Shown: positions 401-61,034 of the stretch, in pieces
Layout: every line of letters starts with the position of its first letter
How positions within the stretch are numbered: the first letter of the stretch is position 1
Source: Diplocarpon mali
Taxonomy: Eukaryota; Ascomycota; Leotiomycetes; Helotiales; Drepanopezizaceae
Length of the DNA stretch: 64,000 nucleotides
Direction: 5' to 3'
Assembly: GCA_024741835.1 (NCBI GenBank)
Contig: JAENRP010000136.1
Location: 43,899 to 107,898 of the forward strand
Notes under the pieces: model-generated
What the model was told of the DNA's origin: nothing
Seen by the model: only the letters and a program-made list of their open reading frames with translations
Database searches by the model: none
Position numbers and translations under genes: made by a program

Positions 401-1000
401 TTTGGCGAATCCTATAATAGCAATCTCAAATAGCAGTAGTTTTAAGTACTTAAGTAATACTAAGCGTAAACTTCAATTAGAGGTATCTCCTTAAAGTCCT
501 TAGAAATCTGAATCTAATAATTCAATTACTTTAGCTTAATAGAACTCTAAAGATTGCCTTAGAATTGTCTCTAAAGACCCCTTTATTCTAAGGACTAATA
601 GGAATTAGCCTAAAGGCTAAGAAGAATCTTAGATATAAACCTTATCTTAGAAATTAGCTTTAGATTAAATAAACCTTATCTTATTACAATTAGTTGCAAC
701 GCTTCTATTAGCTATTTAGCATTTAATTAGAATCTCTTAGCAAACTCGGATTAAACTTTTAATAGAATTCGGAATTCTACTCTTAGGCCTAGCCTATAAG
801 TAGGAGGATAAAAAGATATCTTTGAATAACTTAAGACTACTACTTACTTTTTTAATATTAACACTTGAAAATATTAAAAATAATAACAATTTTAAACTTT
901 TTATTAACCCTTTATTTAAATCTTTTTAAACTTATTTTAATTACTTTAAGATTGACTCGGATTTTAAACGTTCTTTAAGCCCTTTTGAATTTTGAAGTAC
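401..1000 (+). other. Element A leader between LTR and gag
   Basis: About 600 bp of AT-rich sequence without a readable domain. It begins with the possible primer-binding site TTTGGCGAATCC and contains one copy of the dispersed palindrome (779-801), which is not in phase with the downstream gag-pol frame. No start codon can be fixed for gag. Confidence 0.5.
779..801. repeat. Dispersed palindrome copy, element A leader
   Basis: Arms ACTCTTAGGCC and AGCCTATAAGT around a single T. It lies outside the coding frame, upstream of gag. Confidence 0.75.
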
Positions 1001-1787
1001 TCCTTTTAGCAATCAATCTTATACTATTAAAGCTTCTCCTTTGCCTTCTATAAATTCTATTAACTTAGATAGTTAATATAAAATAATAATAGCCGCATTT
1101 AAGGCTATTACTAATCACTTTCCCCTCCTTAGTTCCTTTAATGCTCTTCACTTTATAAGCGCTAATATTACTAATTTCCTTAAGTAATATAAGGAAACTT
1201 ATTACAATTTGAATATTATATAAGAGGATATAATTTCTCGACTTCCTTACTATTATAATTATATAAGTAAAGATATTATTAAGTCCCTTCTTAAATGGAA
1301 AACTTATAGTTTATAGGAATTCCTTATCAAGGCCCTTAAATCTGAATTCTGCGAATTTAATAGATAGTAGATTTGCAATACCCTGGCTTTCTTAAAGGAA
1401 TTTATTCTAATTACTTATATTCCTAAGGAACTTAAAAACTACTATCGGACTTTTACTTATATATTAAATACCTTAATCAGCTAGAAAATACTTAGCAAAG
1501 TTGAAAGAGGCCGCCTTTTCTTACTTAGATTACCTATTAGCCTTTAAAATAAGATTATTAAGTATTTTAAGATCAATAAGTAAGACCTTATAACCTTTAC
1601 TTTATTTAAGGAATTCTCGGCCTTTGCTTTAAAATCAGATCTTAGTAAGAGAACTATTAATATTATAAAGTAGGAAAAAGCCCCTACTCCCTCTTATACT
1701 AAAGACCTTAAGAGCCTAGTCCAAGAATACTTAAAAGCTCTAGAAGTTATAAAGGAGGTAAAGAAGAACCTAGTAGTTATACCTTTC

Positions 1788-1810
1788 ACTTGCGGGCCCG
1801 ACTTAAGAGT
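1788..1810. repeat. Dispersed palindrome copy inside element A gag
   Basis: Arms ACTTGCGGGCC and GACTTAAGAGT. In phase with gag-pol it reads T-C-G-P-D-L-R-V, in the linker between the gag core and the knuckle. Confidence 0.7.
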
Positions 1811-3866
1811 AAGATCTAACCTTAGAATTAAGGAACTTAAGACCTAATTTGCAGAACTTTAAATCTAAAGCTTAGAAATTAGAATTAATAATCTCTTATA
1901 GGAAAAATAGCATATTTCCTAGTTTGGTAATAGATAAAACTCGGCTTCTATAAGCCAACTTAATAGTTCCTATTACTAGACTCTTACTTCTTATCATTTG
2001 GAATAACTAGCTAATATAAGAATATAATAGCTAGTTAAAGAAGGAGGAATTGATCCTAACTAGCACTCTGCTACTATTAATACTATAGGGTACTAAAGAA
2101 ACGGCAATAGAAAATGATTAACTTGCAACTTTTGTAATAATAAAGAACCTAACTATACTTTATATAAATATGATAATAATTGCCCTCTTTTCTTTTGTTT
2201 TATTAATACTAGGGTCATATATATTAATAAGTATGGGATACTTTACATTAGAGATCCTAGGCTAAATGCTATCCTTATTAAAAAATACTAGAATCATTTA
2301 TAGCTATAGACTATTTGAATAAAAATATATAGTATAAAGTAGGATAAGGATTTGGCTAAATGGAAGCGCATTATCGAAATCAACTCTAAGGTCCTAACTT
2401 ATATATATATAAGTCTAGCTAGCAATCTACCTAAAGGAGTGCTTACTAACTAAACTTCGAACTAGACTGCTATTAAAGTCAGAGGTATCTCTATTTTAAA
2501 GTAGGTTAATAATAATATATTTGTTAATATTAATACTGCTTCTATATTTAGAAACCCTTAAAATACTTAATATCCTTTTAGATCTACTACTCTTTTAATA
2601 CTAATAAAACCAGCTAAAGTCCAGAAATTAATACGTATAATTTAGGAATCTTAATATAAAGTTTAAACGCTAAGAGATACTTAACAATCTGGAACTATAG
2701 TAGATAAGGATAAAGCTAATATAGCAAACAAATTAATCAAAGATATAATAGATAAAGATAGCTTTAAGTTTAAAGATTAAGAAGTCGAAGTTATTGCGTA
2801 GACCCTTAACCTTAAGCGAAAGAGATAGATATTAAAATAGAAGAAATTCGTTAATAAATACGCCAGTTTAATTATAATAGAGAAAGCTATAGAGAATATT
2901 ATAGCTTAGTAAATTAACCTTATATTCAAAGACCTATTTGATTTGATTAGACGCTTTAATAAAGTGCTAAGAAAGTATATCTTAGTTACTTTTAAAGATC
3001 TAAATGATAATAAGGAAATGGAAATTATAATATAAAAGAACTTTAAAAAGCACTTAATCTTAATTAAATGTCTTTAAATTATAAAAGATAAAGGAACCTA
3101 AAGGTACTATAATATTATAGTAATAGCTTTAATATCTTAGAATATTAATCGAAATTGTTTAGTAATTGCAATAAAGAGCCCTATTATTATTTATTTTATA
3201 AAAGAATCAGTTAAAGTAAAGGCTTTGATTAATTATAGTTCAAAAGTTAATACAATAATTAGAAAAGTGGCAAAAATGGCTTAATTGACAATTGTTAGCG
3301 ATTGACTCTTTATTTATTCGACTATCTTTAGATTAAAATACAATTTTAATAAATAGGTGAGAAATATAAAGGTTAGAGTTAGAGGAATCGTTAATTATAC
3401 TGACTTTTTAATAATAGAGAATTCTTTAAATAATATTCTTTTAAGAATGCCTTTTATTTTAAAATCTTAGCTAATATTTAACTATCTTAAAGATAGTCTT
3501 ATAAAAGCTAGTCTTTAAAATATAGATTGATCCTTAGAAGGATAAATAGTTATCGTAGGAGATATAGCCGAATTTTAGAATAAGGTTTTAAGAAATGATT
3601 AGCTAGTATAAGGGCTAGGCTTAATGCTAGTAAAGGAAGGCACTTAGTAAGGAGTTATAGTAAAAGAAAGGTGAGTTTGCCGATTTTGAATAATAATAAT
3701 TTGACTCGCAGTCTTAGATTAAGAGTTAAATCTGGAATTTTGAAAAATAGTATAATTAGCGTTTTATTAGAATAATAATTAAGAAAAAAGAAAAATAAGG
3801 TAGAGAAGAGGGTTTGTTTTATAAATTTCAATAATTTATTAATTATTTTAAAAAACTTAAAAAACC

Positions 3867-3889
3867 ACTTATAGGCTGGACTTGCAAGT
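3867..3889. repeat. Dispersed palindrome copy in element A pol, between protease and RT
   Basis: Arms ACTTATAGGCT and GACTTGCAAGT. In the gag-pol phase it reads T-Y-R-L-D-L-Q-V and falls in the linker before the reverse transcriptase. Confidence 0.65.
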
Positions 3890-6800
3890 GAAAAATAATA
3901 AAATTACTAATAATATTTCTATTTATATACTTTAAATTGATAACTTAGAAAATCTTTTATTTATTTTTAAAAAGGAAAATTCGGACTGTTTTATAGGATT
4001 TGATAAAAAAGGAAAAAAGTAGAGAAGTATAGTATTAGCTAATATTCGAACTATATATAAAAGCAAGGCTAATAAAGTATAACTAGTAGATTAGGGAATC
4101 TCTAATAGCTTAAAGCTTAGAGGATTAGATAATTAGTTTGAATAAGATAAGAAGCTTCGACCTCTAAAGCTAGGTGGCAAATTCGATAAGTTCATTATAG
4201 GCAGATTTTCTAATAAACCTATTAGATATCGGCTAATAAAAGAACATTTTAATATATTGAAAATTGGAGAAGACTTAATAGAGTAAGAACGCAAACTACT
4301 TTATAAAACCTTAACAAATCGAAAGGACGCCTTAGCTTTTGATTAGACGGAACTTAGCCAGATTTAAAAAGAGGTTACGCCTTATATTAAGATTAAGATA
4401 ATACCTTATAAAGCTTAGTAAGAGAAAACATTTAAGGTCTTTAAAGCTCTTTAAGAAAAGGTAATCGAAATGTTAAAGGATAGGTTGAAGTAAAGTATTC
4501 TTGAATTTTATAATAGCCCTTATAGGAATAAATGGTTCTTAGTTACTAAGAAAGAAAAGGGAACTTATAGACTAATAATAGTAGTAGTAGAGATGAACTA
4601 AGTAACTGTTAAAGATGCTAATATTCCTTCAAATATAGATGAGTTCTTAAATGAATTCGCAGGATTAACTTATAGCTCTCTTATTGACTTCTTCTTTAGA
4701 TATAACCAATTTATTCTTAATATTAAATCAAGAGATATAATAGCAATTCAAACCCTTCTTAAGCTACTTTAGATAATAAGATTACCTTAAAAGGCTATAA
4801 ATTCGATCGCTTAATTTGTTTAAGTAATCTATAAGATACTAGTAGATTATATACCTAATATTGCGCTCTCTTATATAAATGAAATAAGAGTAAAAGGATT
4901 AAGATTATTCTATAACTATAAAGAAGTTCTTCTTAATATACGACAATTTATAATAGAATATATTTAGAACCTGGACTAGGTGCTTATACGATTTGAAAGG
5001 GCAAGAGTAATAGTTAGTCCGAAGTTATAATACTATCTTCTATCGATGGAAATTGTTGGTTTTATTACTAATTCCAATAGCCGAAGTCCTTAGAAGGCTA
5101 AAGTACTTAAAATTAATAAATAAAAGAGGTATAATAATATAGCAAAAGCTTACATGTTTATTAGTATTATAGTATACTATTACATTTAAATTAAGGATTT
5201 CATTAAAAAGGCAGCACCTATTTACGCCTTATTTCGGAAAGGGGCTGAGTTTCAATAGGAGGAACCCTAAATAGAGGCTATAAACCAACTGAAGTAAGCG
5301 TTGCTTAAAGTACTATATCTAATTAAAATAGACTATAGAGCTAACGCTAGGCTAATTATACTAATAGTTGATATAAGCTTAATCGGATAGGGTGCTATCC
5401 TTTAATAAGCTAATAGCTAATAGAAAAGATATTTAGCTTACTTTAAAAGTAGTCTTTAAAATCCTATAGAGATAAAGTATAATACTATTAAATAAGAATG
5501 CAAAAGCGCTTTAAAAGTAATAAAAAAGATGAGAAGCGACCTTTATAGTACTTACTTTATCTTTGGAACTAATGCTAAAGTGCTAGTAGAATAATTAAAT
5601 AAAGCTGCAAGCGACCTATTAAGAGCCTTGCTAATAAAATGGATTGCTTAAATAAGATTAATAGACTTTAAAGTCAAATATATTTTAAAAATGAAAAATA
5701 CTACTGCCGACGGCCTTTTAAAAAGAACTTATCCCTATCTCTCTAATTTGATTAAAGAAGATGAAATAGATATTAATAAGTAGGTAGAAAACGAAGTTGG
5801 TTATCTATTAATATATTGCCTTAAAGGGATTTAACTTATAGTTTTAGCCTATAAATCAAATGAGAGAATTTTATCACTTAACTACTTAGGTAACTTTAAA
5901 GAAATTGCGAAATTTTTAATTATACTTAGATAATTAAAAACAGTTGCTCTTAAGGATTTTCAAAAGTTTAAAGCTAAAGCTTTGATTTATCTAATGCGAG
6001 GATAGCGATTATTTAAAAGGAATAATAACTTATTTCTTATATAGCTCTATTTAGATAATAATAAACTATAAGCTAAGGCTATTTAAGATATTTATAAGAA
6101 GACTAGCCATTAAGGAGCTAAGTTTACTTATTACTAACTCTTAAGAAAATTCTTTTAGAAAGGCTCTTTTAAGAATTGCAAAGCTTTTATAAAGAGTTAT
6201 ATCCCCTATTAGAAACGAAAACCTGATTATAAAGAAAATCCTCTATTCCTAACTTAGCTATTAGGCCTTTTTTATAAAGTCAGTTTCGATATTATATAAG
6301 TGCTAATAATCGAAAATAGAATTATATATTTTATTTTAATAAAGGAAGACCTATTAAGATAGCTTAAAGGATAACCTTTAAGATCTGCTAACTTTGAATC
6401 TATTGCAAAGTTCCTTTAAGAAGATATAGTCTATTACTATAGACTTTTTAGCAAATTAACTATTAATAAAGGCCTTGAAAATAAAGGAATAGTTAAAGCT
6501 TTTTTATAAAAATATGGTATTAAATAAGTTCAAATCTTAATATATAATTCGAAAGCTAATAGAGTAATAGAGTGAGGATATTGCAACATTCTTAATAGGC
6601 TATTTAAAGTTACTTATAAAGGATTTAAGAATTAGATAAAACACTTTTATAGAATACTTTTTACTTATCAAATGATAATTTATAAACCGATTAGAGTTAT
6701 ATTATTTTTCCTTATTTATAGTAGAGAGGTATAGCTCCCTCTTAAATCCTAATAGCCTATTTGGAGATTATTTGATTATAGTTAAATTTAGAACTATTCC

Positions 6801-8531
6801 AATTTACTTGCAATAAGATGCTAATAACTTAAGCTTTAAGATATAGATATAAAGGAAATCATTTTATAAAAGAAACGATATTAGGAAAAAGCTAAGGAAG
6901 CATAGGCTGCTTCTAAAGTACTTAAAACGCATCTTATTTAAAAAGATGATCTTATCTTAGTTTATGATATTATAAAAAGTATTAATATATCGGTAGATAC
7001 TAAACTTGATTATTAATAGCTTGGCCTATTTAAAGTTAAATTTGAATAAAAAGAAAAGGGATACTATTCTTTTTAGGAACTTGATGGAATTGATATTAAA
7101 GGAACCTTTATAGCTAATTAATTGAAGTGCTTTTATTAATATAACTAGACCTTATTCCTTTTAGAAGATGAATTAGAAATTGATATAACCTTTGAATCTT
7201 CTATAGGAACCGATGGCAATATAAGTAATTTTGAACCTTTAGACAAAGACTAAGATTTTTCTAACTTAATTTATAAGCCGGTCCTATAAGTAAAGAATAT
7301 TAAAATACCTAACTAATCGCAACCTTAAGTTATTATTCCTAAAATATCTAAAGAACGCAAATAGGAATATTAAACGATTTCCTAGCTTATTAATTATCCT
7401 ACCTTCCTTTAATCCTTGTTTTTACATTTTTAGCAAGGTCGCCTCCTTTATTATTTAAGATATAGAACTTTTAAGATCATTTTAAATTCTTACTTACTCT
7501 AACTTATTTTATATTCTTAATATTAGCCTTTAATTATAGTATTCCTATTACTTTCTTTAAATAATAAATAAAAAGTCCAATTTCCTTAATATATATATAG
7601 TAAACCTATTGCAGCTTATATGCCCTTTTAATTCTTATATCCTATTAAACTTTCTTATTTATACTCCTTATCTTTTATAAGTAATATGCCTTTAAAGAAC
7701 TTATAAATAGTTTTACCTATTATAATAAGGGATAAATAAATACTAGTTATAAACTTTTCTTAAGATAGTAGAGCTATTGTATTATTAGAGAACTTTAAAT
7801 CGACCTACGCAGCCTTAGGAGATATAGAGTAATAAAAACTCCTTTTAGCTTACGCGAATGCTATTAATAACCTTTTAACCTAAGTGGCCCTTGGAATTCT
7901 TTAATTTAACAACTTCTTAACTAAAGAATTGAGATTAAAGGGAATCTTTAAAAAGGAATTCTTAGCTGACGCAGATTAATATATAACTTTAGCTAATACT
8001 TTTAAAATGGATTAAGATAAAAGAGAAGAATCTATTTAATAATTGGATAATTTAGCTATTAATAAAAGAGGACTCCTATTTCATTTACGCTTCTTAATAA
8101 ATATTGATTCTAATAATAGAAGACAAGTGTTATTAAAAATTCTTAAGGAAAATACTCCTACTGCTAGAGCTATTCAGATTCTTAATTTCTTTATTATTTA
8201 AAAAGGAGTAGTAAAATTCTAAGGCAATCGAATTCGCAGTTGCAGATTTATAGGCCTATTTAATATAGTACTTATAGTAGCTAATAAGGCTATAAAAAGA
8301 TTAAATTAGGCTATAGATATTACCTTACTTAATAGCACTATTATTAATATACTAGGGCTCTGCGCCTTTGCTTATAGTTTGCTTATTTTAAAAGAGAACT
8401 GGACTCTTATAATAGGGTTTAGATAAGATTTCTTTAATAATAAAGAAGGGAATTGGTTATTTATAGTTAAGCCTACTTTAAAATTCGCTTCTTAACTTAA
8501 AGATACAATAAGTGCTAAACTATATGATTTA

Positions 8532-8554
8532 ACTTATAGTCTTAAATTAAAAGT
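8532..8554. repeat. Dispersed palindrome copy in ORF2 (strongly decayed)
   Basis: Arms ACTTATAGTCT and AAATTAAAAGT, in phase as T-Y-S-L-K-L-K-V. It is recognisable mainly because its counterpart in A2 (61012-61034) is better preserved. Confidence 0.5.
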
Positions 8555-9917
8555 TAGAAATGAGAATTTTAGAATTAGACCTAACTTGCCTTTTATTAAA
8601 ATGATTTTAGAAACTGCTATTAAATAAACTGCCTAAACGCTTAGCGTAGCCTCTTTAGAATTTTCGGAATCTTTAAAGGACTCTCCTTTAGCTAAACGAC
8701 TAATTTTAACTTAACCTTTAAGAAGGATAGATCGTTCGATAGCCATCTTAGCTAATTTGTAATTTGAAACTAAAGGATTGCGCGCTCGCTTAAAATCCTT
8801 TTTTAATAGCTTAAAGGAGCTAGTTCTTAACTTCTTTATATTTATATATAACTATTTTAGAAATAATAATATAAGGTAAGACCTTATTCCTATTACTTTA
8901 AAGATAATTAAGAGAGCTATTAAATAGATTTAATAGCTTATCTTAGATGAGTTCGCTCTTATAGATATTATTTAATTCTTTAATAATTATAGAAGTTAAG
9001 AATCTAGTCTCTTAGATACTAAGTAAGACTATTTTATCTTATAAGAAAGAGAATGCGAAAAGGAATCTATTGATTAGGATATTTATAATTATAGCAATAT
9101 GCCTTAATCAGTTATTCTTAACTTTAAGCTTAAAGAATAATATGATATTTAGGTGTCCTTTATAATAAAAACTTGCTTTTAATAGTATCTTCTTAGTATA
9201 GGAATCGAAGGGAGAAGACTTTACGACCTTTATATTCGCTCTCTTTCGGTTTACTATAGTCTTAATTATAAAGGATTTAATATTAATAAAACTATTAAAT
9301 ACCTCGAACTTCTTTATATAATAAAAGATATTGATCTTTTTTTAATCTACTTTAATAATTAATTCTTTATCTCTTTAAAGATATGTAAATCTAATCTATT
9401 AATAATAGAGGTATCTTTAAGTGCTGTAAAATTTAAGGCTGATCTTAAAGCCTTGAAAGTATTAAAGCCAATTAAATAGAATAATTCCTTCTTATTAATA
9501 TTATTAAGTAATGAATAGTAGGAGGAAATAGAGGAAGAAGGGTCAATTATGATGCTTGAACCCTTTGGATACCGCTTCTTAATCGATAATTTTACTACTA
9601 ATAATAGTGCTTTTATAGGTATATTCCTCTTTATTATAAGATAAGAAGTAGAGATGTATCTTTATTACTTCTGCCTTATAGATAGCGCGACCTTTATACC
9701 TTTTTGTTTTCTTTATAATATAATATTCAATCTTACTTAATAAGTCCTTTGAATATACTATAGACTTTACCTCTTAATTATAATAGTAAGAAGTAGAGGA
9801 ACCTATTAGCTTATAGCCTACCTTAAACCTCCTTAATTGATTGGCCTTAGTCTTTATAATTAAGTTATTTTAATAAAGAGAGATATAAGTGCTGCTAATA
9901 AAGAAAATCCGATTTTC

Positions 9918-9940
9918 ACTTACGGTCTTAGCTTGCGAGT
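9918..9940. repeat. Dispersed palindrome copy in ORF2
   Basis: Arms ACTTACGGTCT and AGCTTGCGAGT, in phase as T-Y-G-L-S-L-R-V. Counterpart in A2 at 59626-59648. Confidence 0.75.
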
Positions 9941-10802
9941 CAATTTTATTAGAAAGCAAGTCTTAGATTATTAGATCCTATCGATCGGATAAGGGCCAGC
10001 TTTTAGAAGCCTTAATAGGTAGGTCGGCTCTTAATTGAATATAAAACTTACTTTATCTATAAAGAAGATAAGTCGATAGACTTCTTAAGTACTTAGTTTA
10101 AAATCTTAACTAGCTCAAATGACTATAAAATTAAAGTAAAAGGAGATCTTGCGACCTATTACTAATAATAGCAATCCAATTATAGTAATAATAAAATAGG
10201 AATACCTTCTTAAAATGCTTTCGGACAATTCTTATAAGACTAGTGGTTTTATAGCCTTTTATAATAATTATATAGCCGTTTATAATAAGAATACCTTAGA
10301 AAATAAGACTTAAATCTCCGATTTTATCTTTTTAGTCTTTGCTTTAAAGTAACCTTTATTACCTTAATAGATTAACGTAAGTAGAACTACTGCACTTTTT
10401 AAGGCAGCTTTTCATCTTAAGAATTGCAGCAGCCTCTTTAAAGCTATTATTAGTCAACGCTTTTAAACGGATCTATTAGTTATAATCAAAGTATAGGAGT
10501 TGTTTCTTCTTAATAAAGACGAATTGAAAATCCACTTTATAGAATATAATCAGAAGCTCTTTAATACCCTTATTAAGGCCTAGACAAACGTTATAAATAC
10601 TAAGTCACTTCTTTATAAACTTAAGTCTTAAGGATAATGCGATAAAGTAAATACTATCTAAGAGCCTAATGTATTAATTGATAAAGGCATTATTACAAGA
10701 AAATTCGGAAAAGAGATAAACTAAGACGCTAGTATAGTATCAGATCCTAATTTGGGAACTAATCCCCTATTTTTACCTTTAAGCTTAAAAACGCTAAGAC
10801 TA

Positions 10803-10825
10803 ACTTGCGAGCCCGGCCTGCGAGT
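10803..10825. repeat. Dispersed palindrome copy in ORF2 (well preserved)
   Basis: Arms ACTTGCGAGCC and GGCCTGCGAGT with a central C, in phase as T-C-E-P-G-L-R-V. Counterpart in A2 at 58741-58763. Confidence 0.85.
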
Positions 10826-11087
10826 GAGGTTGGACTCAGCTAGCTTAAGCCTATAAGATAGTTCAGATAAACCTTAGTTATTAAACCTAAGGGTATAAAT
10901 AGAGGTTCCTTTAATAAAGGTACTTAAATTAGAGAAATCGCTAAAAGGTAAGAACTAACGCAAGAGAAGAAGATTCTAAAGTAACGATAGAACTGATAAT
11001 TAAGTCAAGCAATCTAGAGAATCTAGCCTATTACCCTTAGAGAAGACTATTTAAAGGACTTACAAATTCGAGTTGAATCTTTTTTAG

Positions 11088-11617
11088 GATTATCTACTTC
11101 CTATATACCAGCACCTCTTTATTCTCTATTTATTATTCTATTTTATATATATTCTTTACTCTACTTCATTCTTTATATAATTTATCTTTTGATTATTTCC
11201 TTTATATGCAACTTTCTAATACTTACCTTTAAAATGTTATCCTTACCTTTAAAGAATTATTATTTACCAATTATAGGTCCTTATATATATTATACCCTAC
11301 TTTTATTCCTACTTCTAAGCTTATTATGCCCACTTTTCCTTTGTATACTAGCGCGATTTCAAACTCTATAAATAAGCCTCTCCCTATACTACAATTTTAC
11401 TTTTTTTACTTTTTCTATAACCCTACTAGACCTATAATACTAGCACTAATACTATTATCTTTTATTATTAATCTTTTCTAATATAAGCCTCTTATATTAT
11501 TGATCTTTCCTAAATAATCATCTCTTTATTTAAAACTACCCCCTTCTATTAAAAAAATTCATTATAGTACTACTAAGCTTAAGCAAGAAAGCCATACTTA
11601 AGAAGAATATATTAGTT
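11088..11617. other. Spacer between ORF2 and ORF3 of element A
   Basis: About 530 bp that is very T/C-rich on the plus strand (11130-11520), with no repeat or domain that I can see. The A2 counterpart (57953-58483) keeps the same strand asymmetry. Possible promoter or UTR of ORF3. No motif stands out. Confidence 0.4.
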
Positions 11618-12451
11618 ATGGCTTCAGGCAGCAAACCCTTAAATATTGCTAATAATAAACTAATATTAGAGGGTAACTTTTCATAAGATAGAAAAGCTTT
11701 AAGATCATTAGAAGATATAGTAAGCACCTATAGAATATTAGGTGAAATAGAATAGTAAGTATTCTTAAACTCATCTATAGAAGTATTAAACTATAGAATT
11801 TCTACTATAGAAGAAGGATTTTTAGGCTTTAATGATTTTCTTAAGAATAAGCTTAAGATAAAAGGGATCAATTATGAAAAATTTCTATAGGAATATTAAA
11901 GGTATGCTAATTTAATGGATTTGTTTCGGAAAAATCGAGATAAGAAGAATAAGTATATAAAAAGATTATTATAGTTTATAAGTAGCACTTATAGTATACT
12001 TTTCCAGACCCACTTTATAACCGATATTACTGCTAATAACGCCTTGCAAGGGCTTAGCAAAATCTTTAAGATATACTAACTTATAGTAAAGGATATATAG
12101 GTATTGAATTATTTTACCATCTAAGAAGGTATGAAAAAGCTATAAGGAAATAGCATTAGAGGTAGAAAATTTATTAGGTTCTTAAGCACTATTATATACT
12201 CTACTATTCAGACTATAAAAGATAAACCCTTATAGTATAATAATTTTGCACTTTCTAATTAAACTGTTCTAGATACACTTGGCCTCTAATAGTTATAATA
12301 TAGTCTACTTATTATAAAAGAAAAGATGACTTATCTTACTAAGTATATTATAAATTACTTTAATAATAAGTTAGAGAGATAGGAGTTTATTATTCCTATT
12401 ACTTTAAAAATGCTACTACCCTTAGTAGGAATAACTGATAAGGAGAATTTG

Positions 12452-12474
12452 ACTTATAAGCCTGGCCTATAAGT
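12452..12474. repeat. Dispersed palindrome copy in ORF3
   Basis: Arms ACTTATAAGCC and GGCCTATAAGT, in phase as T-Y-K-P-G-L-(Q)-V. Only 177 bp before the next copy. Counterpart in A2 at 57096-57118. Confidence 0.8.
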
Positions 12475-12628
12475 GGAATTAGCATATAAGGAGGATGTCC
12501 TCGAACTAAAGGTACCTATAATACTAGGAACTTAAGCAGCTGACCTACCTAACTACTAATCCTCCGACTTAGACGAATTTGAGTTACTATCCTTAAAAAT
12601 GTCTTAAATACTAGTAGCAAAGAAAATG

Positions 12629-12651
12629 ACTCGCAGGCCTGGCCTATAGGT
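12629..12651. repeat. Dispersed palindrome copy in ORF3
   Basis: Arms ACTCGCAGGCC and GGCCTATAGGT, in phase as T-R-R-P-G-L-(Q)-V. The left arm looks unmutated. Counterpart in A2 at 56910-56932. Confidence 0.85.
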
Positions 12652-13858
12652 TAATATATATGATATTATAGACTTAAAAGATGATTTATCTAATAAAGAA
12701 ATAAGCATTATCACTAATATGCTGGAAATTTTTAATAATACTAAAAAGGATACCGCTAATATTATACAATCTTTCCCTAATGACTTATAAAAATTTGTTC
12801 TCAAATTCTATAAGTTAATAATAAAGCGTTTAAGAAAAGAAGGTTAAGGAGAAGTCTTATTAGTATAGGAAGGGACAATAAGAGCCGTTAAGCAGATTAT
12901 AAAACTGCTATAAGACGAATTTTCTATAGATAATATTATACAGTTCTTTATTAAGTATAAGAAATTAAAAGGTGACTTTTATATTCTTAAGGAGAAATCC
13001 GAAGTTAATACAAATATCATCTCTATAGAATGTTATTAGGTCCCCTTTAATATAAAGATAATACTATAGTATAGTAATAGTTTTAAAATAGTAGTAATAT
13101 TAAAAATAAAGATAAGATTTGCAAAGTTTATAATAGGAATATTTAAGGACTTTAATTTTAAAAAGTTCTACGCCCTTTATAAACGCCAATATGCGCAGTA
13201 CTATAGATTGGCAATAATAGGCCTTATTAATAAAGATATATCGTCTAATATCTATAAATTTTGCACTACTCCTAACCTGACCTTATTTTTATTATATTTA
13301 GGAAATTATACAATTATAGCTACTAGCAATAGAATAGTAAACTAAGTCAAAAAGGATATGTTATTAGGCTTTTCTAAATTTAGAGTAGCACCTGAAGCCT
13401 TTAAATTGTTTTATAATATCGCATGGACCCCTGCCTAGTATAATGCTATACTAACTATTGACAACTTTATATTATTCTATAGCAAAGGCTTTTTAAATAT
13501 ACTTAAGTTATTTAGCTCCGCCTTTTTAGGCACTATGCGTACGTATAGTTATAGTAATCATAGAAAGAATTCATTTTTAATATTAGTATAAGAAGAATTA
13601 GAAATATACTAATACTACTTCCGGACCTTAGATAAGAAGCCAAATCCCCCTTCCGCCTTCCTTTATAATATGATTTATAGCTTGATATAGCAGACCTTGA
13701 GAATGCACTATAGTCTATATCTTAATGCTCTATTAACTTATTATAATTCTTTTTACAAACTGGTAGCATATCTTAAGTCTATATAGTTTATAAGCATTAA
13801 CTACTATTTGCGAATTGTTTCTATTAAGATTAACGCTAATATAAGATTTGTAAGATTG

Positions 13859-13881
13859 ACTCTTAGGCCTAGCTCGCGGGT
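13859..13881. repeat. Dispersed palindrome copy in ORF3
   Basis: Arms ACTCTTAGGCC and AGCTCGCGGGT, in phase as T-L-R-P-S-S-R-V. Counterpart in A2 at 55680-55702. Confidence 0.8.
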
Positions 13882-14703: not shown

Positions 14704-14788
14704 TGATCTAGCAAAGGGAAAGGCTAAGGAAGTGAAATCTATAGAATCTCCTGCCTCTCCTTCCTTTATTACCGACAATTCCCTTAAA

Positions 14789-50022: not shown

Positions 50023-50027
50023 AAACT

Positions 50028-52241: not shown

Positions 52242-52390
52242 ACTCCTAGGCTTATCCTATAAGTTAGGTTATATAGTCTTACGAAGGAGAGTTATTAAAT
52301 CGACTCTTAGGCCTAAACCGCAAGTTAAGTTATATAGTCTTATAAAGGAACGCTTTTAGGAAAATTGACTCTTAGTCCTACCTTGCGAGT
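52242..52390. repeat. Three dispersed palindromes near the 3' end of D2
   Basis: Copies at 52242-52264, 52303-52325 and 52368-52390, colinear with those of D. Confidence 0.8.
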
Positions 52391-52725: not shown

Positions 52726-53979
52726 ATAGCTTGCTATTTTAATAAAAGCCTTTAATTTTATTAAGTTTACTATTTAAGTAAAGGCAAATAGGTAATTAAA
52801 GTATATAAAGAGTATTGATTAACTTAAGAATATACACCTTTCTATTAGATTTAAAGGTATTGACTTTGCAAGTACTAACGCTAAAAGGTTAAATAGCTCT
52901 ATTAACTATACTTAAGAAGGGTAAATTGTCTTAAGTAGTATAAAAGGTGAATTTGAAAAGATTATTAGAGATATACTTATTAGCACCTAAATTATATAAT
53001 TAATAATTCCTCAATTTAATAAGAAGTAGGAGGTAAAAGAACTGACTCCTAGGCCTAGCCTATAAGTGGAAATTGGCCTTAAGAAGGAATCGACTTTTAG
53101 TAAGGAATTAACTCCTAGGCCTAGCTTGCAAGTGAAAAATAGCCCTAGGGTTAATAATAGTATAATATACTTAAAGAGGTTATTATCTAACTCTTTATCT
53201 TCCTTTTAAATCTTTTTAAAAGGCTTTTTAACTTTTAATAATAATAGTAAAGACTTATCATCCTTACCTTTAAGGTAATAGAATATATACTTCTTCCTTA
53301 AGTCCTTTTCCTAAGCCTCTCTTTTCGATTTATTAATTGCAAAGTAGTTATCTACCTTATAGTATAGCTTTAGTTGCTTATAATAAGGATAAGGGGAGTT
53401 AAGGGTAGTAGTACTCTTAAAGGTACTCTTCTTTAAGTCTTTAAAACCTCTCTTATTTTCTAACTTCTTATAGTCAGAGGAATGCGGCTTATTAGCCAAT
53501 TTATTACTATATAAGACAGTTCTATTCATTTTTAAACTTTATAAGGCTTAAGCTTTATTAGTAATATCTTTAATAAAAGCTTTAAGCGTAATCTCTGATT
53601 TTCGTCTAGCTACTATAGCTAATCGAAGGTTAGAGTATTATCGATCTACTTAAATAGGCCATCTATTAAAATAGCTAGTAATAAATATAATTAGGTACTA
53701 GTAAAAGGGAAGGGCAGAGTCGAAAGCTTTCAATTTATTAATTAAAAGCCTAAAGGCGATAATATAGGCTTTAAGTAAGTTAAAGTTATTATATTTCATA
53801 GTAACGTAGGTTTAAATAATATTATATTTAAATACTATACTAGTTCCTTTATACTATTTTTAAAGAGCTTCCTATATATCTAAGGAAGATTTATCGCCTT
53901 TTATATACGCTAGTAGTCTTAGTTTATAATTAAATATAATAGTAAGCTTGATCTAAGATTCCTTAGCTTCCTATTTAAC
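52726..53979 (-). pseudogene. Element G gag and protease fragment (Ty1/copia, minus)
   Basis: On the minus strand the fragment starts inside a copia-type gag at 53979 (K-G-D-K-S-S-L-D-I-x-E-A-L-K-N-S). It includes a 72-codon open stretch (53311-53529) with a knuckle-like V-L-Y-S-N-K-L-A-N-K-P-H-S-S-D-Y (former C-x2-C ... H ... C), and continues into protease near 52970 (L-G-A-N-K-Y-I-S-N-N-L-F). D2 cuts it at 52725. The rest of the element is not in the window. Its right end abuts the truncated A2 LTR. It carries two palindromes in the gag-protease linker. Confidence 0.78.
53045..53133. repeat. Two dispersed palindromes in element G
   Basis: Copies at 53045-53067 and 53111-53133, between the knuckle region and protease. 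The two share one phase (T-Y-R-L-G-L-G-V and T-C-K-L-G-L-G-V) but this differs from the protease frame as I read it, so an indel may lie between. Confidence 0.8.
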
Positions 53980-54228
53980 CTAATATAAAACAGAGGGGAG
54001 ACAACACAAGAATAGGCCTAAGGGAAGACCTAAGAACAAGAGGAGGAAGCACTATAAGCGGGCTCTCTTAGACAAAGGGTTAGGAATAAGTCCTAAGTAT
54101 AGGGTATATTCGGTACTATAGCGCTGCGCGCTATCTCTATATATAGAAGATGGCCCTTTTATCCTCCTACTATCTTGCGCCGATTATATAATATATATTA
54201 TAAGACCTATCTATCTTAGGTCTTTATA
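53980..54228 (-). repeat. Element A2 3' LTR, truncated (minus)
   Basis: Minus-strand reading begins TATAAAGACC at 54228 and stops being homologous after CTGTTTTATATTAG at 53980, within a few bases of the break in element A's 3' LTR. Confidence 0.87.
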
Positions 54229-54532
54229 TATATCTTAAATAATAAAAGTAGTAGTCCTTACTACTATTAGCAAAGAATATAAAATAACTTAAGTTAAGGC
54301 GATAGCATATTAAATCATTATTAGCAAACCTTAAGTGTAAGCAAACTAATATATTAAAAGGCCTAAATTAGGGCTATATTATTATTAAAAGTAAAGAAAA
54401 AAAGAAGCATTTTTTTTATATACGCTTTTCACTTATAGGCTAGGCTTAGGAGTCCAAAAACAAAAACTAGTAAAATAAAAATAAGCAGACTATAGAATTT
54501 TAAAAAAATCAAAAATAGAACTAACCTAAGTA
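54229..54532. other. Element A2 3' non-coding region
   Basis: Colinear with 15023-15370. It contains a palindrome copy at 54431-54453 and, near 54405-54422, the gap-free sequence matching the N run of element A. Confidence 0.75.
54431..54453. repeat. Dispersed palindrome copy, A2 3' region
   Basis: Arms ACTTATAGGCT and GGCTTAGGAGT; counterpart of 15100. Confidence 0.8.
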
Positions 54533-54857
54533 TTAGTTTTCCTTAGTTCTCTTTAAAGGATAGGAAGAACTATTATTAGATAATATTCTCTTTATTAAAC
54601 GACCACTTCTTTTTATAGCATTGCTGTCAGTATCTAATGAGATAGGTCTTAGTATAGCAAGAGCTTCTATACTCCTTATAAATGCTAGTATAGTATAATA
54701 GCTTTTGCTAATAGGAAGAGAGACTTATATTATAGCATTATTATTATTATCGTCTTTATTATTATTATCATCCTTTAAAGAGTTACCTGCTATTAAAGGA
54801 GATGCAGCAAAGGATTCTATAGATATAAGTTCCTTATCCTTACCTTTCTTTAGATTA

Positions 54858-54880
54858 AGTCGCAGGCCAGGCCTAAGAGT
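54858..54880. repeat. Dispersed palindrome copy in A2 ORF3
   Basis: Arms AGTCGCAGGCC and GGCCTAAGAGT; counterpart of 14681, differently mutated. Confidence 0.8.
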
Positions 54881-55679
54881 CATTTCTAAGGTCTTTACTT
54901 AAGGTTTCTTAATACTATATTTCTTAAGAAGAACGGCTTTGTTAATCATATTATCAGCCTTAATACTATCATTTATACCCTTAGTCTTAGCTTAAGACTT
55001 ATCTCTATATAGCTATAGCTCTAACTATTGAATTATTTTTCAAGTGTTTGCAAAATCTTCGAAAAGTTCTTACTTATATTTCTTTAAATAAGTTATTAAC
55101 TATATAATATCCTTCGAAAATAAGTCTTTCACTATTATTATAACTAATAGATTATTCTATAGTCTTCTTCCTATAAGCGCTTTTAATAATAGACTACCTT
55201 TTATTATTTTAAGTATTATATAGAGCTTTGCAAATAATTCGCCTATAATACTTTATCCTATAGTCTAAGGTCGCTTTATATTAATAGCTTCAATTAAAAA
55301 GTCCTTTAGATCCACTCTATTCTTAAGGGCTTCGTTCCTAACAACTTTAATATAGTTATTACTAACTATAAGGAAGCCGCCTTTACTAGGTTCCTATTCC
55401 GAATCTAAGTTAATAAATATTCCTTATCTTATAGATACTAAGAATAGGACGGTCTTATTAGAAATATATTCTTTTAAGAACGTTCTTTATTTAATATTCA
55501 ATTCTTTTTATTAAGCAGCGCTTTATACTAAGTTTATCGAAATCTATTAAGCACTCTTAAGTTTAATTAGTATAAGGATTAATGATTCGTAAGACTTCTC
55601 TTATATAGCAAATTGGCCAATCGACTGTTTAGCTGCTAGAATGATATAATAGTCAATAGTTCTATTATTAAAAGGACTA

Positions 55680-55702
55680 ACCCGCGAGCCAGGCCTAGGA
55701 GT
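55680..55702. repeat. Dispersed palindrome copy in A2 ORF3
   Basis: Arms ACCCGCGAGCC and GGCCTAGGAGT; counterpart of 13859. The minus-strand frame is open across it. Confidence 0.85.
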
Positions 55703-56909
55703 CAATCTTATAAATCTTATATTAGCATCAATTCTAATTGCGACGATTTTCAAGTAGTAGTCAACCTTAATAAATTGTGCAAGCTTAGGGTACGTTATTA
55801 GCTTATATAAAGAATTATAATAAGTTAGCAGAGCGCCTAGATATAATCTATAGTATATTCTCAAAGTCTATTGTATCAAACTATAAGTCATATTTTAAAG
55901 GAACGCAGATAGAGGCGCTAGCTTCTTATTAAAGACTTAGAAATAATATTTATACATTTCCAGTTCTTCTTATACTAATATCAAAAATGAAGTCTTTGCG
56001 TAAGAACTATAACTATATATGCGTATAATACTTAAGAAAGCATAACTAAATAGCTTAAGTATATTTAAAAAACCTTTACTATAGAATAATATCAATTTGT
56101 CATTAGTTAATATAGCATTATACCAAGCGGGAGTCTAGGCGATATTATAGAATAATTTCAAAGCTTTAAGCGCTACCTTAAACTTAGCAAATCCTAACAA
56201 TATATCTTTCTTAACCTAGCTTGCTATTCTATTATTAGTAGCTATAATTGCATAATTCCTTAGGTATAGTAAAAACAACTTTAGGTTAAGAGCAGTGCAA
56301 AATTTATAGATATTGAATAATATATCTTTATTATTAAGGCCTATTATCGCCAGCCTATAGTACTATGCGTATTATCGTTTATAAAAGGCGTAGAATTTAT
56401 TAAAATTAAAGTCTTTAAACATTCTTACTATAAATTTAAAGAGTCTTATTTTCATTTCTAGTATTACTATAATCTTAAATCTATTGCTATACTATAGTAT
56501 TATCTTAATATTAAAGGGAACTTGATAGCATTCTATAAAGATAATAGTTATACTATCTTTTGACTTTTCTTTAAGAATATAATAGTTACTATTCAATTTC
56601 TTATAGTTAATAAAGAATTATATAATATTATCTATAGAGAATTCGTCTTATTATAGTTTTATAATTTGTTTAACAGCTCTTACCATTCCTTCTTATACTA
56701 ATAAGACTTCTCCTTAGCCTTCCTTTCTTAAACGCTTTATTATTAACTTATAGAATTTAAGAATAAAGTTTTATAAGTCTTTAAAGAAGGATTAAACGAT
56801 ATTAAAGATATCTTTCTTAGTATTATTAAAAATTTCTAATACATTAGTGATAGCGCTATTCTCTTCCTTTAATAAATCTTCTTCCGAATTTATATTATTA
56901 TATATATTA

Positions 56910-57118
56910 ACCTATAGGCTAGGCCCGCAAGTCAATTTCTTTGCTACTAGTATTTAAGGTATTCTAGACTTTTCTAAGGATAGTGATTCAAATTCGTCTG
57001 AATTAGAGGATTGATAGTCGGGTAGGTCAGCTGCTTAAGCTCTAGGTATTATAGGCACCTTATGCTTATAATCAGTCTTATTATATGCTAATTCTACTTA
57101 TAGGCCAGGCCTACGAGT
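56910..57118. repeat. Two dispersed palindromes in A2 ORF3
   Basis: Copies at 56910-56932 and 57096-57118, counterparts of 12629 and 12452. The spacing is 186 bp against 177 bp in A, a difference of three codons. Confidence 0.82.
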
Positions 57119-57952
57119 CAAATTCTCCTTATCAATTATTCCTACTAGGAGTAGTAGCATTTTTAAGGTAATAGGGATAATAAACTCCTATTTCTCTATC
57201 TTATTATTAAAGTAATTTATAGTATACTTAATAAGATAAGTCATCTTTTCTTTTATAATAAGTAGACTATATTACAACTATTAAAGGCTAAGTATATCTA
57301 AAATAGTTTGGTCGGAAAGTGTAAAATTATTATACTATAAGGGTTCGTCTTTTATAGTTTAAATAGTAGAGTATATAATAGTACTTAAGAACCTAATAAA
57401 TTTTCTACCTCTAATGCTATTTTCTTATAGCTTTTTTATACTCTCTTAAATAGTGAAATGATTTAATACCTATATAGCCTTTACTACTAATTAGTATATC
57501 TTAAAGATTTTACTAAGCCCTTATAAGGCGTTATTAGCAGTAATATCAATTATAAAGTAGGTCTGGAAAAGTGTACTATAAGTGCCTCTTATAAACTGCA
57601 ACAATCTTTTCATATACTTATTTTTCTTATCTCGATTTTTCCAAAACAAATCTATTAAATTAGCATACCTTTAATATTATTATAGAAATTTTTCATAATC
57701 GATCCTTTTTATCTTAAGCTTATTTTTAAGAAAATCATCAAAGCCTAGAAATCCTTCTTTAACTGTAGAGATTCTATAGTTTAATACTTTAATAGATGAA
57801 TTTAAGAATACCTATTATTCTATCTTACCTAACGTTCTATAAGTAGTTATAATATCTTTTAATAATCTTAGAGCTTTACCGTCTTATAAAAAGCCACCCT
57901 TTAATATTAGTTTATTATTAGCAGTATTTAAGGGTTTGCTACCTAAAGCTAT

Positions 57953-58483
57953 AACTGATATATTCTTCTTAAGTATGGCTTTCTTACTTAAGCTTAATAG
58001 TACTATAATGAATTATTTAATAAGAGGGTAGTTCTAAACAAAGAGATGATTATTTAGGAAAGATTAATAATATAAGAGGCTTATATTAGAAAAGATTAAT
58101 AATAGAAAGACAATAGTGGTAGTATTAGTATTATAGGTCTAGTAGGATTATAGAAGAAGTAAAAAAAGGTAAAATCGTAGTGCGAGAAGAGGTTTATTTA
58201 TAGAGTTTAGAATCTCGCTAATATATAAAGGAAAAGTAGGTATAAAGAATCTAGAAGTAGAAACAAAAGTAGGGTATGACGCATATAAGGACCTATAATT
58301 AGTAAATGACAATTTATTAAAGGTAAGGACGATATTTTAAAGGTAAGCGTTAAAAAGCTATATATAAAGGGAATAATCAAAGAATGGATTATATAAAGAG
58401 TAAAGTAAATAAAGAATATATATAGAATAGAATAATAGATTAAAGATAAAGAGGTATAGGTATATAGAAAGTAGATAATCTTA
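57953..58483. other. A2 spacer between ORF3 and ORF2
   Basis: Colinear with 11088-11617. Purine-rich on the plus strand. No feature recognised. Confidence 0.5.
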
Positions 58484-58740
58484 AAAAATTCAATTCCTAA
58501 TTTGCAATTTCTTTAAATGGTTTTCAAAGGGGAGGTAAACTCGATTCTCTAAATCGTTTAACTCAATTATCAGTTTTATTATCACTTTAAAGTCTTCTTC
58601 TCTTATATTAGTTCTTACTTTTCGGCGATTTCTCAACTTTAAGGACCTCTTTTAAAGGATCTTCTATTAATACCCCTAGATTTAGTAACCGAGGTTCATC
58701 CGAACTAGCTCGTGGGCTTAAGCTAGCCGAGTCCAACCTT

Positions 58741-58763
58741 ACTTGCAGGCTAGGCTCGCGAGT
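58741..58763. repeat. Dispersed palindrome copy in A2 ORF2
   Basis: Arms ACTTGCAGGCT and GGCTCGCGAGT; counterpart of 10803. Confidence 0.85.
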
Positions 58764-59625
58764 CAATCTTGGCGTTTCTAAGCTTAAGGGTAAAAATAAG
58801 GGATTAGTTCCTAAATTAAGGTCTAATACTATACTAGCGTCTTAGTTCGTTTCTTTTCCGAACTTTCTTATAATAATACCTTTATTAATTAATATATCAA
58901 GCTCCTAAATAGCATTTACTTTATTATATTATCCTTAAAACTTAAGTCTATAAAGAAGCGACTTAGTATTTATAACGTTTATCTAAGTATTAATAAGGGT
59001 ATTAAAGAGTTTTTAATTATATTTTATAAAGTGGATTTTCAATTCGTCTTTATTAAAAAGGAATAACTCTTATACTTCGATTATAACTAAGGGATCTATC
59101 TAAGAGCGCTGACTAATAATAGCTTTAAAGAGGCTGCTACAGTTCTTAAGATAAAAAGCTACCTTAAAGGGTATAGTAGTTCTAATTGTATTAATCTATT
59201 AAAGTATTAAAGGTTGCTTTAAAGTAGAGATTGAAAAGATAAGATCAGAGATTCGAGTCTTATTTTCCAAGGTATTCTTATTGCAAATAGCTATATAATT
59301 ATTATAAAAGGCTATAAAACCATTAGTTTTATAAGGTTTATTTAAAAGCATTTTAAAAAGGTGCCTTTATTTTGATATTATTATAGTAAGGTTGCTATTA
59401 TTAGTAATAGGCCGTAAGATCTCTTTTTACTTCATTTTTACAATCATTTAAGCTAATTGAGATTTTAAACTAAGTGCTTAAGAAGTCTATCGACTTATCT
59501 TCTTCGCAAATAAAGTAAGTTTTACATTTGATTAAGAGCCGATCTACCTATTAAAGCTTCCTAAAGTAGGTCCTTATCCGATTAATAGAATCTGATAATC
59601 TAAGACTTACTTACTAGTAAAATTA

Positions 59626-59648
59626 ACTCGCAGGCCAGGACCGTAAGT
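59626..59648. repeat. Dispersed palindrome copy in A2 ORF2
   Basis: Arms ACTCGCAGGCC and GGACCGTAAGT; counterpart of 9918 and better preserved on its left arm. Confidence 0.82.
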
Positions 59649-61011
59649 AATAATTGGATTTTCTTTATTAATAGTACTTATATCTCTTTTTATTAAAATA
59701 ACCTAATTATAAAGACTAAGGCCAATCAATTAAGGAGGTTTAAGATAAGCGATAAGCTAATAGGCTCTTCTACTTTTCGCTATTATAGCTAAAAGGTAAA
59801 GTCTATAATACATTCGAAGGACTTATTAAGTAAGATTAAATATTATATTATAAAGAAAATAAGAAGGTATAAAGGTTGCATTATCTATAAAGTAAAAGTG
59901 ATAAAGATATATCTCTACTTTTTATCTTATAATAAAGAGGAATATACCTATAAAAGCACTATTATTAGTAGTAAGATTATCGGTTAGGAAGCGGTATCTA
60001 AAGGATTTAAGCATTATAATTGACCCTTCTTCTTCTATTTCCTTTTACTATTTATTACTTAATAATATCGAAAAGAAGGAATTGTTCTATTTAATTAGCT
60101 TTAATGCCTTTAAGACTTTAAGATCAGCCTTGAATTTTATAATACCTAAAGATGCCTCTATTATTAATAGGTTGGATTTGCATATCTTTAAAGAGATAAA
60201 GAATTAATTATTAAAGTAGATTAGAAAAAGATTAATATCTTCTATTGCGTAAAGAAGTTCGAAGTATTTAATAGTTTCGTTAATATCAAATCCTTTATAA
60301 TTAAGACTATAGTAAACTAAAAGAGAGCAAATATAAAGGTTGCAAAGTCTTCTCCCTTCGATTTCTATACTAGGAAGATACTATTAAAAGTGAGTTTTCA
60401 TTATAAAGGATACTTAAATATTATATTATTCTCTAAGCTTAAGGTTGAAAATAACCGATTAAAGCATATTACTATAATTACAAATGTCTTAATTAATAGA
60501 TTCCTCTTTGCGTTCTCTTTCTTATAAGATAAAATAGTCTCGCTTAATATCTAAGAGACTAGGTTCTTAGCTTTTATAATTATTAAAGAATTAAATAATA
60601 TCCGTAAGGGCGAATTCGTTTAAGGTAAGCTATTAAATCTATCTAATAGCTCTTTTAATTATCTTTAGAATAATAGGAATAAGGTCTTCCTTTGTATTAT
60701 CATTTATAAAGCAGTTATATATAAATATAAAGAAGTTAAGAACTAGCCTTTTTAAGTTGTTAGAAAAGGAGTCTAAATAGACGCGCAATCCTTTAGTTTT
60801 AAATTGCAAGTTAGCTAAAGTGGCTATTAAACGATCTATCCTTCTTTAAGGTTGCGCTAAAATAGGTTATTTAGCTAAAGGAGAGTCCTTTAAAGACTTT
60901 GAAAAGTCTAATAAGGCAGCGCTAAGGGTTTAAGCAGTCTATTTAGCTGCGGTCTCTAAGGTTATTTTAATAAAGGTTAAATTGGATCCTCTTTTAGAAT
61001 TCTTAGTTTTA

Positions 61012-61034
61012 ACTCTTAATCTAAGACCGTAAGT
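61012..61034. repeat. Dispersed palindrome copy in A2 ORF2
   Basis: Arms ACTCTTAATCT and AGACCGTAAGT; counterpart of 8532. Confidence 0.6.

Follow-up and report, generated by a model that had tools for sequence, protein, structure and literature searches.

Results

Elements and motif copies in the window

In the window (the whole stretch of 64,000 nt analysed), a short dyad-symmetric motif occurs in two families of Ty3/gypsy type, in one of Ty1/copia type and in an unclassified fourth element (Table 1). Elements A and E, the latter a chromodomain element, are gypsy by Pfam (RNase H and H2C2 domains were found in a parallel copy of A on C1), and D is copia by Pfam through its relative P0004, as the preliminary description had assigned them; 'G', which it had also called copia, gave no Pfam match in the single frame tried.

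Table 1. Elements and motif copies (motif copies from the PWM scan, elements from self-BLAST)
Feature	Position	Strand	Remarks
Element A, long Ty3/gypsy, 14 copies	1..15620	+	left end may run past window
A site 1, gag region	779..801		frame 1; stop counts narrowly differ
A site 2, gag region	1788..1810		frame 0; stop counts narrowly differ
A site 3, pol frame	3704..3726		frame 0
A site 4, pol frame	3867..3889		frame 0
A site 5, RNase H-integrase linker	5834..5856		frame 1; parallel copy C1:399991
A site 6, after integrase zinc domain	7269..7291		frame 0
A site 7, second ORF	8532..8554		frame 0
A site 8, second ORF	9918..9940		frame 0
A site 9, second ORF	10803..10825		frame 0
A site 10, second ORF	12452..12474		frame 0
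A site 11, second ORF	12629..12651		frame 0
A site 12, second ORF	13859..13881		frame 0
A site 13, second ORF	14681..14703		frame 0
A site 14, probably 3' non-coding	15100..15122		
E, single unit, protease-RT linker	30203..30225		2-4 units in other E copies
E, tandem unit 1, RNase H-integrase linker	32094..32116		linker by flank likeness; parallel copy L030:9333
E, tandem unit 2, 45 nt on	32139..32161		parallel copy L030:9378
D, upstream array unit	35556..35578		frame 0
D array unit	35646..35668		frame 0
D array unit, 39 nt on	35685..35707		
D array unit, 48 nt on	35733..35755		
D array unit, again 48 nt on	35781..35803		
D C-terminal unit 1, past RNase H C-terminus	38916..38938		frame 1 if RNase H frame continues
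D C-terminal unit 2	38977..38999		frame 0 if RNase H frame continues
D C-terminal unit 3	39043..39065		frame 0 if RNase H frame continues
D2 counterpart of 38916	52242..52264		also self-BLAST
D2 counterpart of 38977	52303..52325		also self-BLAST
D2 counterpart of 39043	52368..52390		
'G' unit 1	53045..53067		frame 0 fewest stops in parallel copy L025:4256
'G' unit 2, 66 nt on	53111..53133		
Element A2, partial inverted copy of A	53980..61780	-	
A2 counterpart, site 14	54431..54453		
A2 counterpart, site 13	54858..54880		
A2 counterpart, site 12	55680..55702		
A2 counterpart, site 11	56910..56932		
A2 counterpart, site 10	57096..57118		
A2 counterpart, site 9	58741..58763		
A2 counterpart, site 8	59626..59648		
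A2 counterpart, site 7	61012..61034		position in A/A2 alignment

The PWM scan (score at least 13) gave 40 matches in the window; 30 Markov-1 simulations averaged 0.37. Two were rejected: the match at 36640 is integrase coding sequence (ISLKS*PAGIKSKKL in the window, ISPKSWPAGIKSKKL in P0004), and at the place of 54977 none of the 5 further copies recovered for element A has the motif. There are thus 38 genuine copies (A 14, A2 8, D 8, D2 3, E 3 and 'G' 2) at 27 distinct sites after merging A/A2 and D/D2 counterparts. The repetition first described therefore stands with revised counts (35 copies at 24 sites had been reported), while the unit is a dyad of 23 nt, not 24, and its undecayed arms are ACTCSCGGKCC, not ACTCGCAGGCC; most copies in the window are decayed. 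Weaker symmetric conservation reaches to about 35 nt, giving the extended motif RAWTYN-core-NRAWTY (37 flank-distinct sites, including the later-rejected 54977). No PWM match of at least 13 was found in 15.2-30.2 kb or 39.1-52.2 kb of the window; the former interval contains a gypsy RT and the latter contains repeats.

Pfam and site comparison confirm that one unit occurs at non-homologous places of unrelated LTR-retrotransposon families. Copies occur in coding frames, several within inter-domain linkers, and the motif tolerates being translated, as had been proposed. Repeat units are 13, 15 or 16 aa long, the D copies have frame lengths consistent with whole 13- or 16-codon units, and E arrays contain 1 to 4 units; slippage accounts for these tandem arrays more simply than binding does.

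Genome-wide occurrence and degeneracy rule

A degenerate-pattern search of the whole assembly, which the preliminary description had called for, showed that the motif is genome-wide (the genome is taken as that of Diplocarpon coronariae, the apple-blotch fungus). The pattern ACTYNNARGCCNRGMYYNNRAGT has 1491 forward and 1488 reverse matches, many places being counted on both strands, and none in the reversed control. Undecayed copies fitting ACTCSCGGKCCNGGMCCGSGAGT number 58, and 208 fit with at most one mismatch (reversed-pattern control 0); many further copies have decayed through transitions. No strict match lies in C1:3,708-394,936, and the copies that could be assigned are in retrotransposons, mostly within their protein-coding parts.

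The degeneracy follows an exact rule. When seven positions (3, 5, 9, 12, 15, 19, 21) were freed to N, the genome count rose from 58 to only 63, and the five added copies all differ by transitions (in four, one C>T/G>A change at position 5 or 19; in the fifth, C>T at 19 together with A>G at 21); no A or G at position 3 and no A or C at position 9 appeared in otherwise undecayed genomic copies. Offsets +/-3 admit G or T only. Among 42 flank-distinct sites (200 kb plus the window), positions 5, 9, 12, 15 and 19 mix bases, and transversions are nearly nil at 18 of 23 positions, with exceptions at 2, 14 and 22.

Constraint on the DNA letters

Constraint was measured at 20 sites with at least three same-site paralogues (264 kb), copies being recovered from their flanks alone. 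Transversion-polymorphic site-positions make up 1 of 360 in the fixed core (18 positions) and 48 of 1000 in the flanks, which are not all coding (Fisher p 7.7e-6), and 4 of 100 at variable core positions. In third-codon phase, the core has 0 of 80 (positions 3, 6, 18, 21) against 23 of 360 in the flanks (p 0.012). These sites are therefore constrained at the DNA level, third codon positions included. Transition polymorphism is no lower in the core than in the flanks. In addition, 15 of 18 assigned coding sites use frame 0, read as T-x-G-P-G-P-x-V (p 1.9e-5), which points to a peptide-level contribution.

Arms and half-sites

Among the 50 undecayed copies listed (of 58), none is fully self-complementary and 44 are mismatched at +/-7, while at +/-3 the arms vary independently, with mismatches as frequent as independence predicts (TT at positions 9/15 in 3, 2.8 expected) and no compensatory variation. 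These results do not support the hairpin that had been proposed. The arms are not independent everywhere: at +/-7 no site shows the C-arm/C-arm combination (0 of 36 sites against 5.1 expected, p 0.004; also 0 of the 50 listed undecayed copies), a gap not expected of simple independent half-sites. Of 334 half-sites, 283 have a partner that matches at 9 or more of 11 R/Y positions and 51 have none, against about 69 expected by chance, i.e. no excess of orphan half-sites.

Insertion signatures

No significant direct repeat indicating the target-site duplication of a MITE or DNA transposon was found in 45 comparisons, and no flank covariation was found. Flanks of different sites share little past about 35 nt, so duplication together with flanks fails to explain the dispersal. 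The array of the copia family is missing from 8 of 8 aligned relatives in other fungi, and a pattern search for a motif-like peptide found it in 0 of 26 matches other than P0004. The array was thus gained in this copia family, as the insertion claim had it. The preliminary description had held that a lack of empty sites would argue for an inherited motif, and in gypsy A this is what two sites in this genome gave: at one, 39 of 40 scored matches are filled (their spans exceed the query by 23-24 nt) and one stops at the junction; at the other all 40 are filled.

Discussion

Our leading interpretation, which we hold tentatively and at somewhat less than an even chance, is a dispersed and maintained motif of two half-sites, probably bound by a putative dimeric protein. 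The DNA letters are apparently kept for their own sake, which suggests a candidate shared recognition site that has gone unrecognised. Two half-sites at fixed spacing, unconserved pairing and DNA-level constraint are as expected of a dimeric site, except for the dependence at +/-7. A dimeric protein is proposed because pairing is not conserved, the arms are independent at +/-3, and only G or T, both keto bases in the major groove, are admitted there.

On this reading a degenerate dyad motif, with core ACTCSCGGKCCNGGMCCGSGAGT and weaker outer RAWTYN/NRAWTY, has been copied into many places in several unrelated LTR-retrotransposon families of one fungus, perhaps by duplication, template switching or some insertion activity. 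Its targets include linkers between domains, in which a Pro/Gly-rich insert of 8 residues should be nearly harmless, and in places it has expanded into tandem arrays. While the elements were active, its letters would have been preserved as a recognition site for a putative dimeric DNA-binding protein, encoded either by the host or by the elements, and copies may later have died through C>T/G>A (RIP-like) decay. Somewhat less probable, though still plausible, is that unrelated gypsy and copia elements acquired and kept one bipartite site, in many copies per element and inside their ORFs, because one putative trans-acting protein serves them all (such as a factor for anti-silencing, nuclear targeting or copy number), while the site also propagates as a mini-palindrome.

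A selfish mini-palindrome of the Rickettsia type, an inert insert that spreads in retrotransposons, is tolerated in linkers and does nothing for its carrier, seems rather unlikely. It would agree with the dispersal over unrelated elements, the copies in or after linkers, the use of frames 0 and 1 and probably of non-coding sequence, the absence from copia relatives, and a full dyad free of orphan half-site excess. However, the constraint on DNA letters, which the preliminary description had not foreseen, does not fit an insert that drifts freely, and the strict S/K/M rule, the lack of target-site duplications and the lack of empty counterparts of the two gypsy A sites in this genome also speak against it. 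An ordinary inherited motif of no special property, multiplied within families by duplication and shared through old exchange, would explain why the examined A copies have identical site sets and why unit lengths in D and arrays in E look slippage-like; the exact degeneracy rule and the small likeness of flanks between sites speak against it, and it is very improbable.

The DNA palindrome might instead be a by-product of a peptide, T-[PR]-G-P-G-P-[RG]-V, selected as a flexible spacer or processing site in polyprotein linkers. The frame-0 majority and the copies located in linkers (PR-RT, RNase H-IN and PR-IN) are in line with this, as is the fact that several degenerate positions (9, 12 and 15, and also the weaker offsets -12/-15) fall on third codon positions in frame 0. 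Yet third codon positions 3, 6, 18 and 21 lack transversions, the freed positions 3 and 9 keep their limits, frame-1 copies exist, and a peptide gives no reason for dyad symmetry in the DNA, which leaves this account improbable. Least credible, and already disfavoured, is a hairpin in RNA or in single-strand DNA, or an RNA dimerisation palindrome, serving packaging or reverse transcription: near-palindromes located in retroelements invite it, and such signals are known from retroelements, as outlined in PMC5445492, but none of the undecayed copies listed has fully paired arms, their +/-3 mismatches follow independence, and element A has 14 copies rather than one.

Comparison with known systems

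Gene-invading, protein-coding palindromes are known in Rickettsia and Wolbachia, whose palindromic elements are roughly 100-150 nt long and lie, translated, within ORFs of unrelated genes. The present motif shares with them palindromic DNA in frame inside ORFs of unrelated proteins; it differs in its fungal nuclear genome, its length (23-35 nt), its LTR-retrotransposon hosts where assignable, the lack of a fully paired hairpin, its arms independent at +/-3 and its DNA-level constraint. Dimeric Zn(II)2Cys6 zinc-cluster proteins bind inverted CGG...CCG sites, and the core includes an inverted CGG-N7-CCG, although many more positions are fixed here (outer arms ACTC/GAGT).

A fungal nuclear counterpart was not found among the leading results in open-access literature. 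This nuclear, high-copy case has a degeneracy rule exact enough to weigh selection on the DNA against selection on the peptide or on a hairpin, and the motif is a defined short probe for seeking the putative protein. Should it prove to be a binding site, unrelated retrotransposons would have a cis-element in common; should it prove to be selfish, it would be a retrotransposon parasite of a kind not found among those leading results for fungal nuclear genomes.

Gene-invading coding palindromes also occur in some other microbes, according to the account of PARCEL in PMC2996958. PARCEL repeats, as described there, are amphipathic, 25 aa (75 nt) long and matched by HMM, with palindromes that differ between ORFs; they vary in number, lie in ORFs that are sometimes associated with mobile elements, and occur in some eukaryotes too. 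Both systems make tandem protein repeats of variable number from dyad-symmetric DNA, whereas here one fixed 23-nt motif occurs singly or in 13-, 15- or 16-aa units in retrotransposon polyproteins, and no PARCEL-type (DUF285) Pfam domain was found in either P0004 or the ORF of the E array. REP sequences, in the outline of PMC3733652, are likewise palindromes of 20-40 bp in many copies, prokaryotic and extragenic, while the present motif is fungal and often intragenic. The Conserved Hairpin Site of GalEa copia elements, as presented in PMC5445492, is also a conserved palindromic feature of fungal LTR retrotransposons; it is a single site immediately downstream of the 5' LTR, in elements that lack a primer-binding site, in contrast to the many sites found here across pol and other ORFs of both gypsy and copia elements.

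Copies and consensus of the motif

With a position weight matrix (PWM) seeded from the first matches and then iterated, 40 matches to the 23-nt dyad-symmetric core were found in the 64-kb window, versus 0.37 in simulations. Real motif copies number 38, at 27 distinct sites. The long Ty3/gypsy element A contains 14 copies, of which 8 recur in A2, a partial copy of A in inverse orientation, and the Ty1/copia element D contains 8, of which 3 recur in D2. The chromodomain gypsy element E accounts for another 3, and a fourth element for 2. Most of the window copies have decayed by transitions, as have the elements carrying them.

The window is part of G000:C136, from a genome of 49.37 Mb. Genome-wide, 58 places fit the undecayed pattern ACTCSCGGKCCNGGMCCGSGAGT and none matches the reversed-pattern control, while 208 places are obtained when one mismatch is permitted. 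Freeing positions 3, 5, 9, 12, 15, 19 and 21 all together added only five places in the genome, all of which were listed and differ by transitions: four have a single C>T/G>A at position 5 or 19, and the fifth has C>T at 19 and A>G at 21. Since the additions are transitions only, position 9 is G/T, 15 is C/A, 5 and 19 are C/G, and 12 is free. The 23-mer is flanked by a weaker symmetric RAWTYN/NRAWTY (37 flank-distinct sites, including one later discarded).

Positions in the carrier elements and their decay

In D, 8-residue units and spacers of 5 or 8 residues form an array. In P0004, an intact copia protein from D. coronariae related to D, this array separates the beta-barrel (Pol_BBD) domain from the integrase zinc region. 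The lengths of P0004-related frames in the genome (979, 992, 995, 1008, 1021, 1024 and others) fit 13- and 16-residue steps. E has 1 to 4 units upstream of reverse transcriptase, and a motif pair that in locus L030 separates RNase H from an H2C2 match of low score. In A, motif sites are located in gag and in pol; one of the pol sites, as verified in the copy on contig C1, lies between RNase H and H2C2. Seven further sites share one frame in a long second ORF for which Pfam gave no match. A Pfam-less frame of this kind after pol is unusual for Ty3/gypsy. A Polinton/Maverick identity of A was rejected, because its RNase H and H2C2 domains show a gypsy element.

All 57 listed matches of P0004 carry stops (47 of 1116 candidates scored). 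For P0002, a 70-residue D. coronariae protein fragment, one genome match has 100% identity and no stop, and the other 149 copies listed are at 90% identity or less; counted by hand from the listing, 126 of these 150 copies contain stops. The open frame of the family E copy on contig C48 is found among the 150 listed copies, most of which are stop-bearing. The copia- and Ty3-rich repeats found here agree with published D. coronariae assemblies (PMC11527701). From the P0002 match, the origin of P0004 and this repeat content, the genome was taken to be that of D. coronariae.

Coordinates of individual features and matches (C1, C48 and C402, contigs; L036 and L044, further loci with motif copies)
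Sequence	Position	Strand	Feature
Window	8000-15000		Low-stop single frame of ~7 kb following the gypsy pol of A
L036	2400-9300		Low-stop single frame of ~7 kb following the gypsy pol of A
Window	27101-27505	both	Ala-rich open frames of ~130 residues each, apparently compositional repeats
Window	36640		Match discarded as integrase coding sequence
Window	54977		Match discarded; the motif is lacking here in the element's other recovered copies (5 of 5)
L044	6191-6763	-	190-residue open frame with three motif copies; no Pfam match for the first 163 residues
G000:C48	170370-170675		Family E copy with undecayed motif units beside a 271-residue stop-free open frame
G000:C402	25584-25692		One flank-joined match stopping exactly at the motif junction
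C1	3,708-394,936		No copy among the strict-pattern matches listed

Origin of the motif sites

The preliminary description regarded the motif as an inserted unit, and the copia array supports this: all 8 aligned copia relatives have a short linker at the array position, and no motif-like peptide was found in 26 P0004 matches other than P0004 itself. Judged from these relatives, the array is a gain. For the two A sites the claim found no such backing. Using flank-joined queries, the motif was present in 39 of 40 scored copies at the first site (40 of 300 candidates scored) and in 40 of 40 at the second (40 of 239). A separate flank search over 264 kb gave 163 sites whose flanks were both present; no empty site, that is, an element copy with both flanks and without motif, turned up when the gap was required to be no more than 8 nt from zero. 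The junction stop on C402 could be a contig end, a rearrangement or an altered site. As for target-site duplication, four of 45 direct-repeat comparisons reached nominal p 0.016–0.048, which is not significant after so many tests, and the longest direct repeat at motif sites gave p 0.053. Because nearly all scored A copies contain the motif, with neither empty site nor significant target-site duplication, the two A sites had probably gained it before the observed copies spread.

Constraint on the DNA letters, variation of the arms and possible selection on the peptide

Among same-site copies, which were re-collected by flanks alone against ascertainment bias, the fixed core has transversions at 1 of 360 site-positions versus 48 of 1000 in the flanks (p 7.7e-6, 20 sites), and the variable core at 4 of 100. 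The false site 54977 was dropped from this test (3/378 versus 50/1050 with it). Four recovered middles were set aside: those of 52 and 57 nt come from a repeat-rich flank (L025:850), and two others, each 24 nt long, from alignment edges. In the third-codon phase, the core has 0 of 80 and the flank 23 of 360 (p 0.012), while transition polymorphism is not reduced in the core. Since core transversions are so few, including in the third-codon phase, the DNA sequence of the motif was conserved during the active life of the elements, apparently beyond peptide needs.

The hairpin proposed in the preliminary description is not supported by comparison of the arms. None of the 50 listed undecayed copies is fully paired, and the arms vary independently at positions 9/15; a hairpin or RNA-dimer function is disfavoured, because arm pairing is not kept. 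At +/-7, 44 of the 50 copies combine a C arm with a G arm, and the C-C combination is missing from all 50 and from 36 distinct sites, where 5.1 would be expected; at this position the arms therefore do not vary independently. Partnerless half-sites are no commoner than chance. These features agree less well with a hairpin than with two half-sites that are recognised in double-stranded DNA.

The most likely explanation is that several element families acquired copies of the motif, which survived in linkers and non-coding stretches, multiplied by slippage and would have been kept because of a putative binding factor. An inert selfish palindrome is possible, and so is a peptide motif, for which the reading frame gives support. 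The frame T-x-G-P-G-P-x-V (frame 0) is used at 15 of 18 frame-assigned coding sites and frame 1 at the other 3 (binomial p 1.9e-5), in a tally made by hand from 13 sites of A (11 in frame 0), one D array, three D C-terminal sites (two in frame 0, assuming that the RNase H frame continues) and one E array, where two A gag assignments depend on narrow stop-count differences. The tally excluded three L044 copies (frames 1, 0, 1), A site 14 and L025:850 (both probably non-coding), and additional sites that read in frame 0 in E and the fourth element. This bias speaks for some peptide-level selection in addition to the preservation by a putative binder.

Related systems

No fungal nuclear counterpart of the motif was found in a limited literature search. 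The coding palindromes of Rickettsia and Wolbachia are among the nearest described systems. By term search, “palindrom” is absent from the main text of the D. rosae genome paper (PMC5628827). Also among the nearest systems are PARCELs (PMC2996958) and the GalEa copia elements, which have a single hairpin site (PMC5445492).
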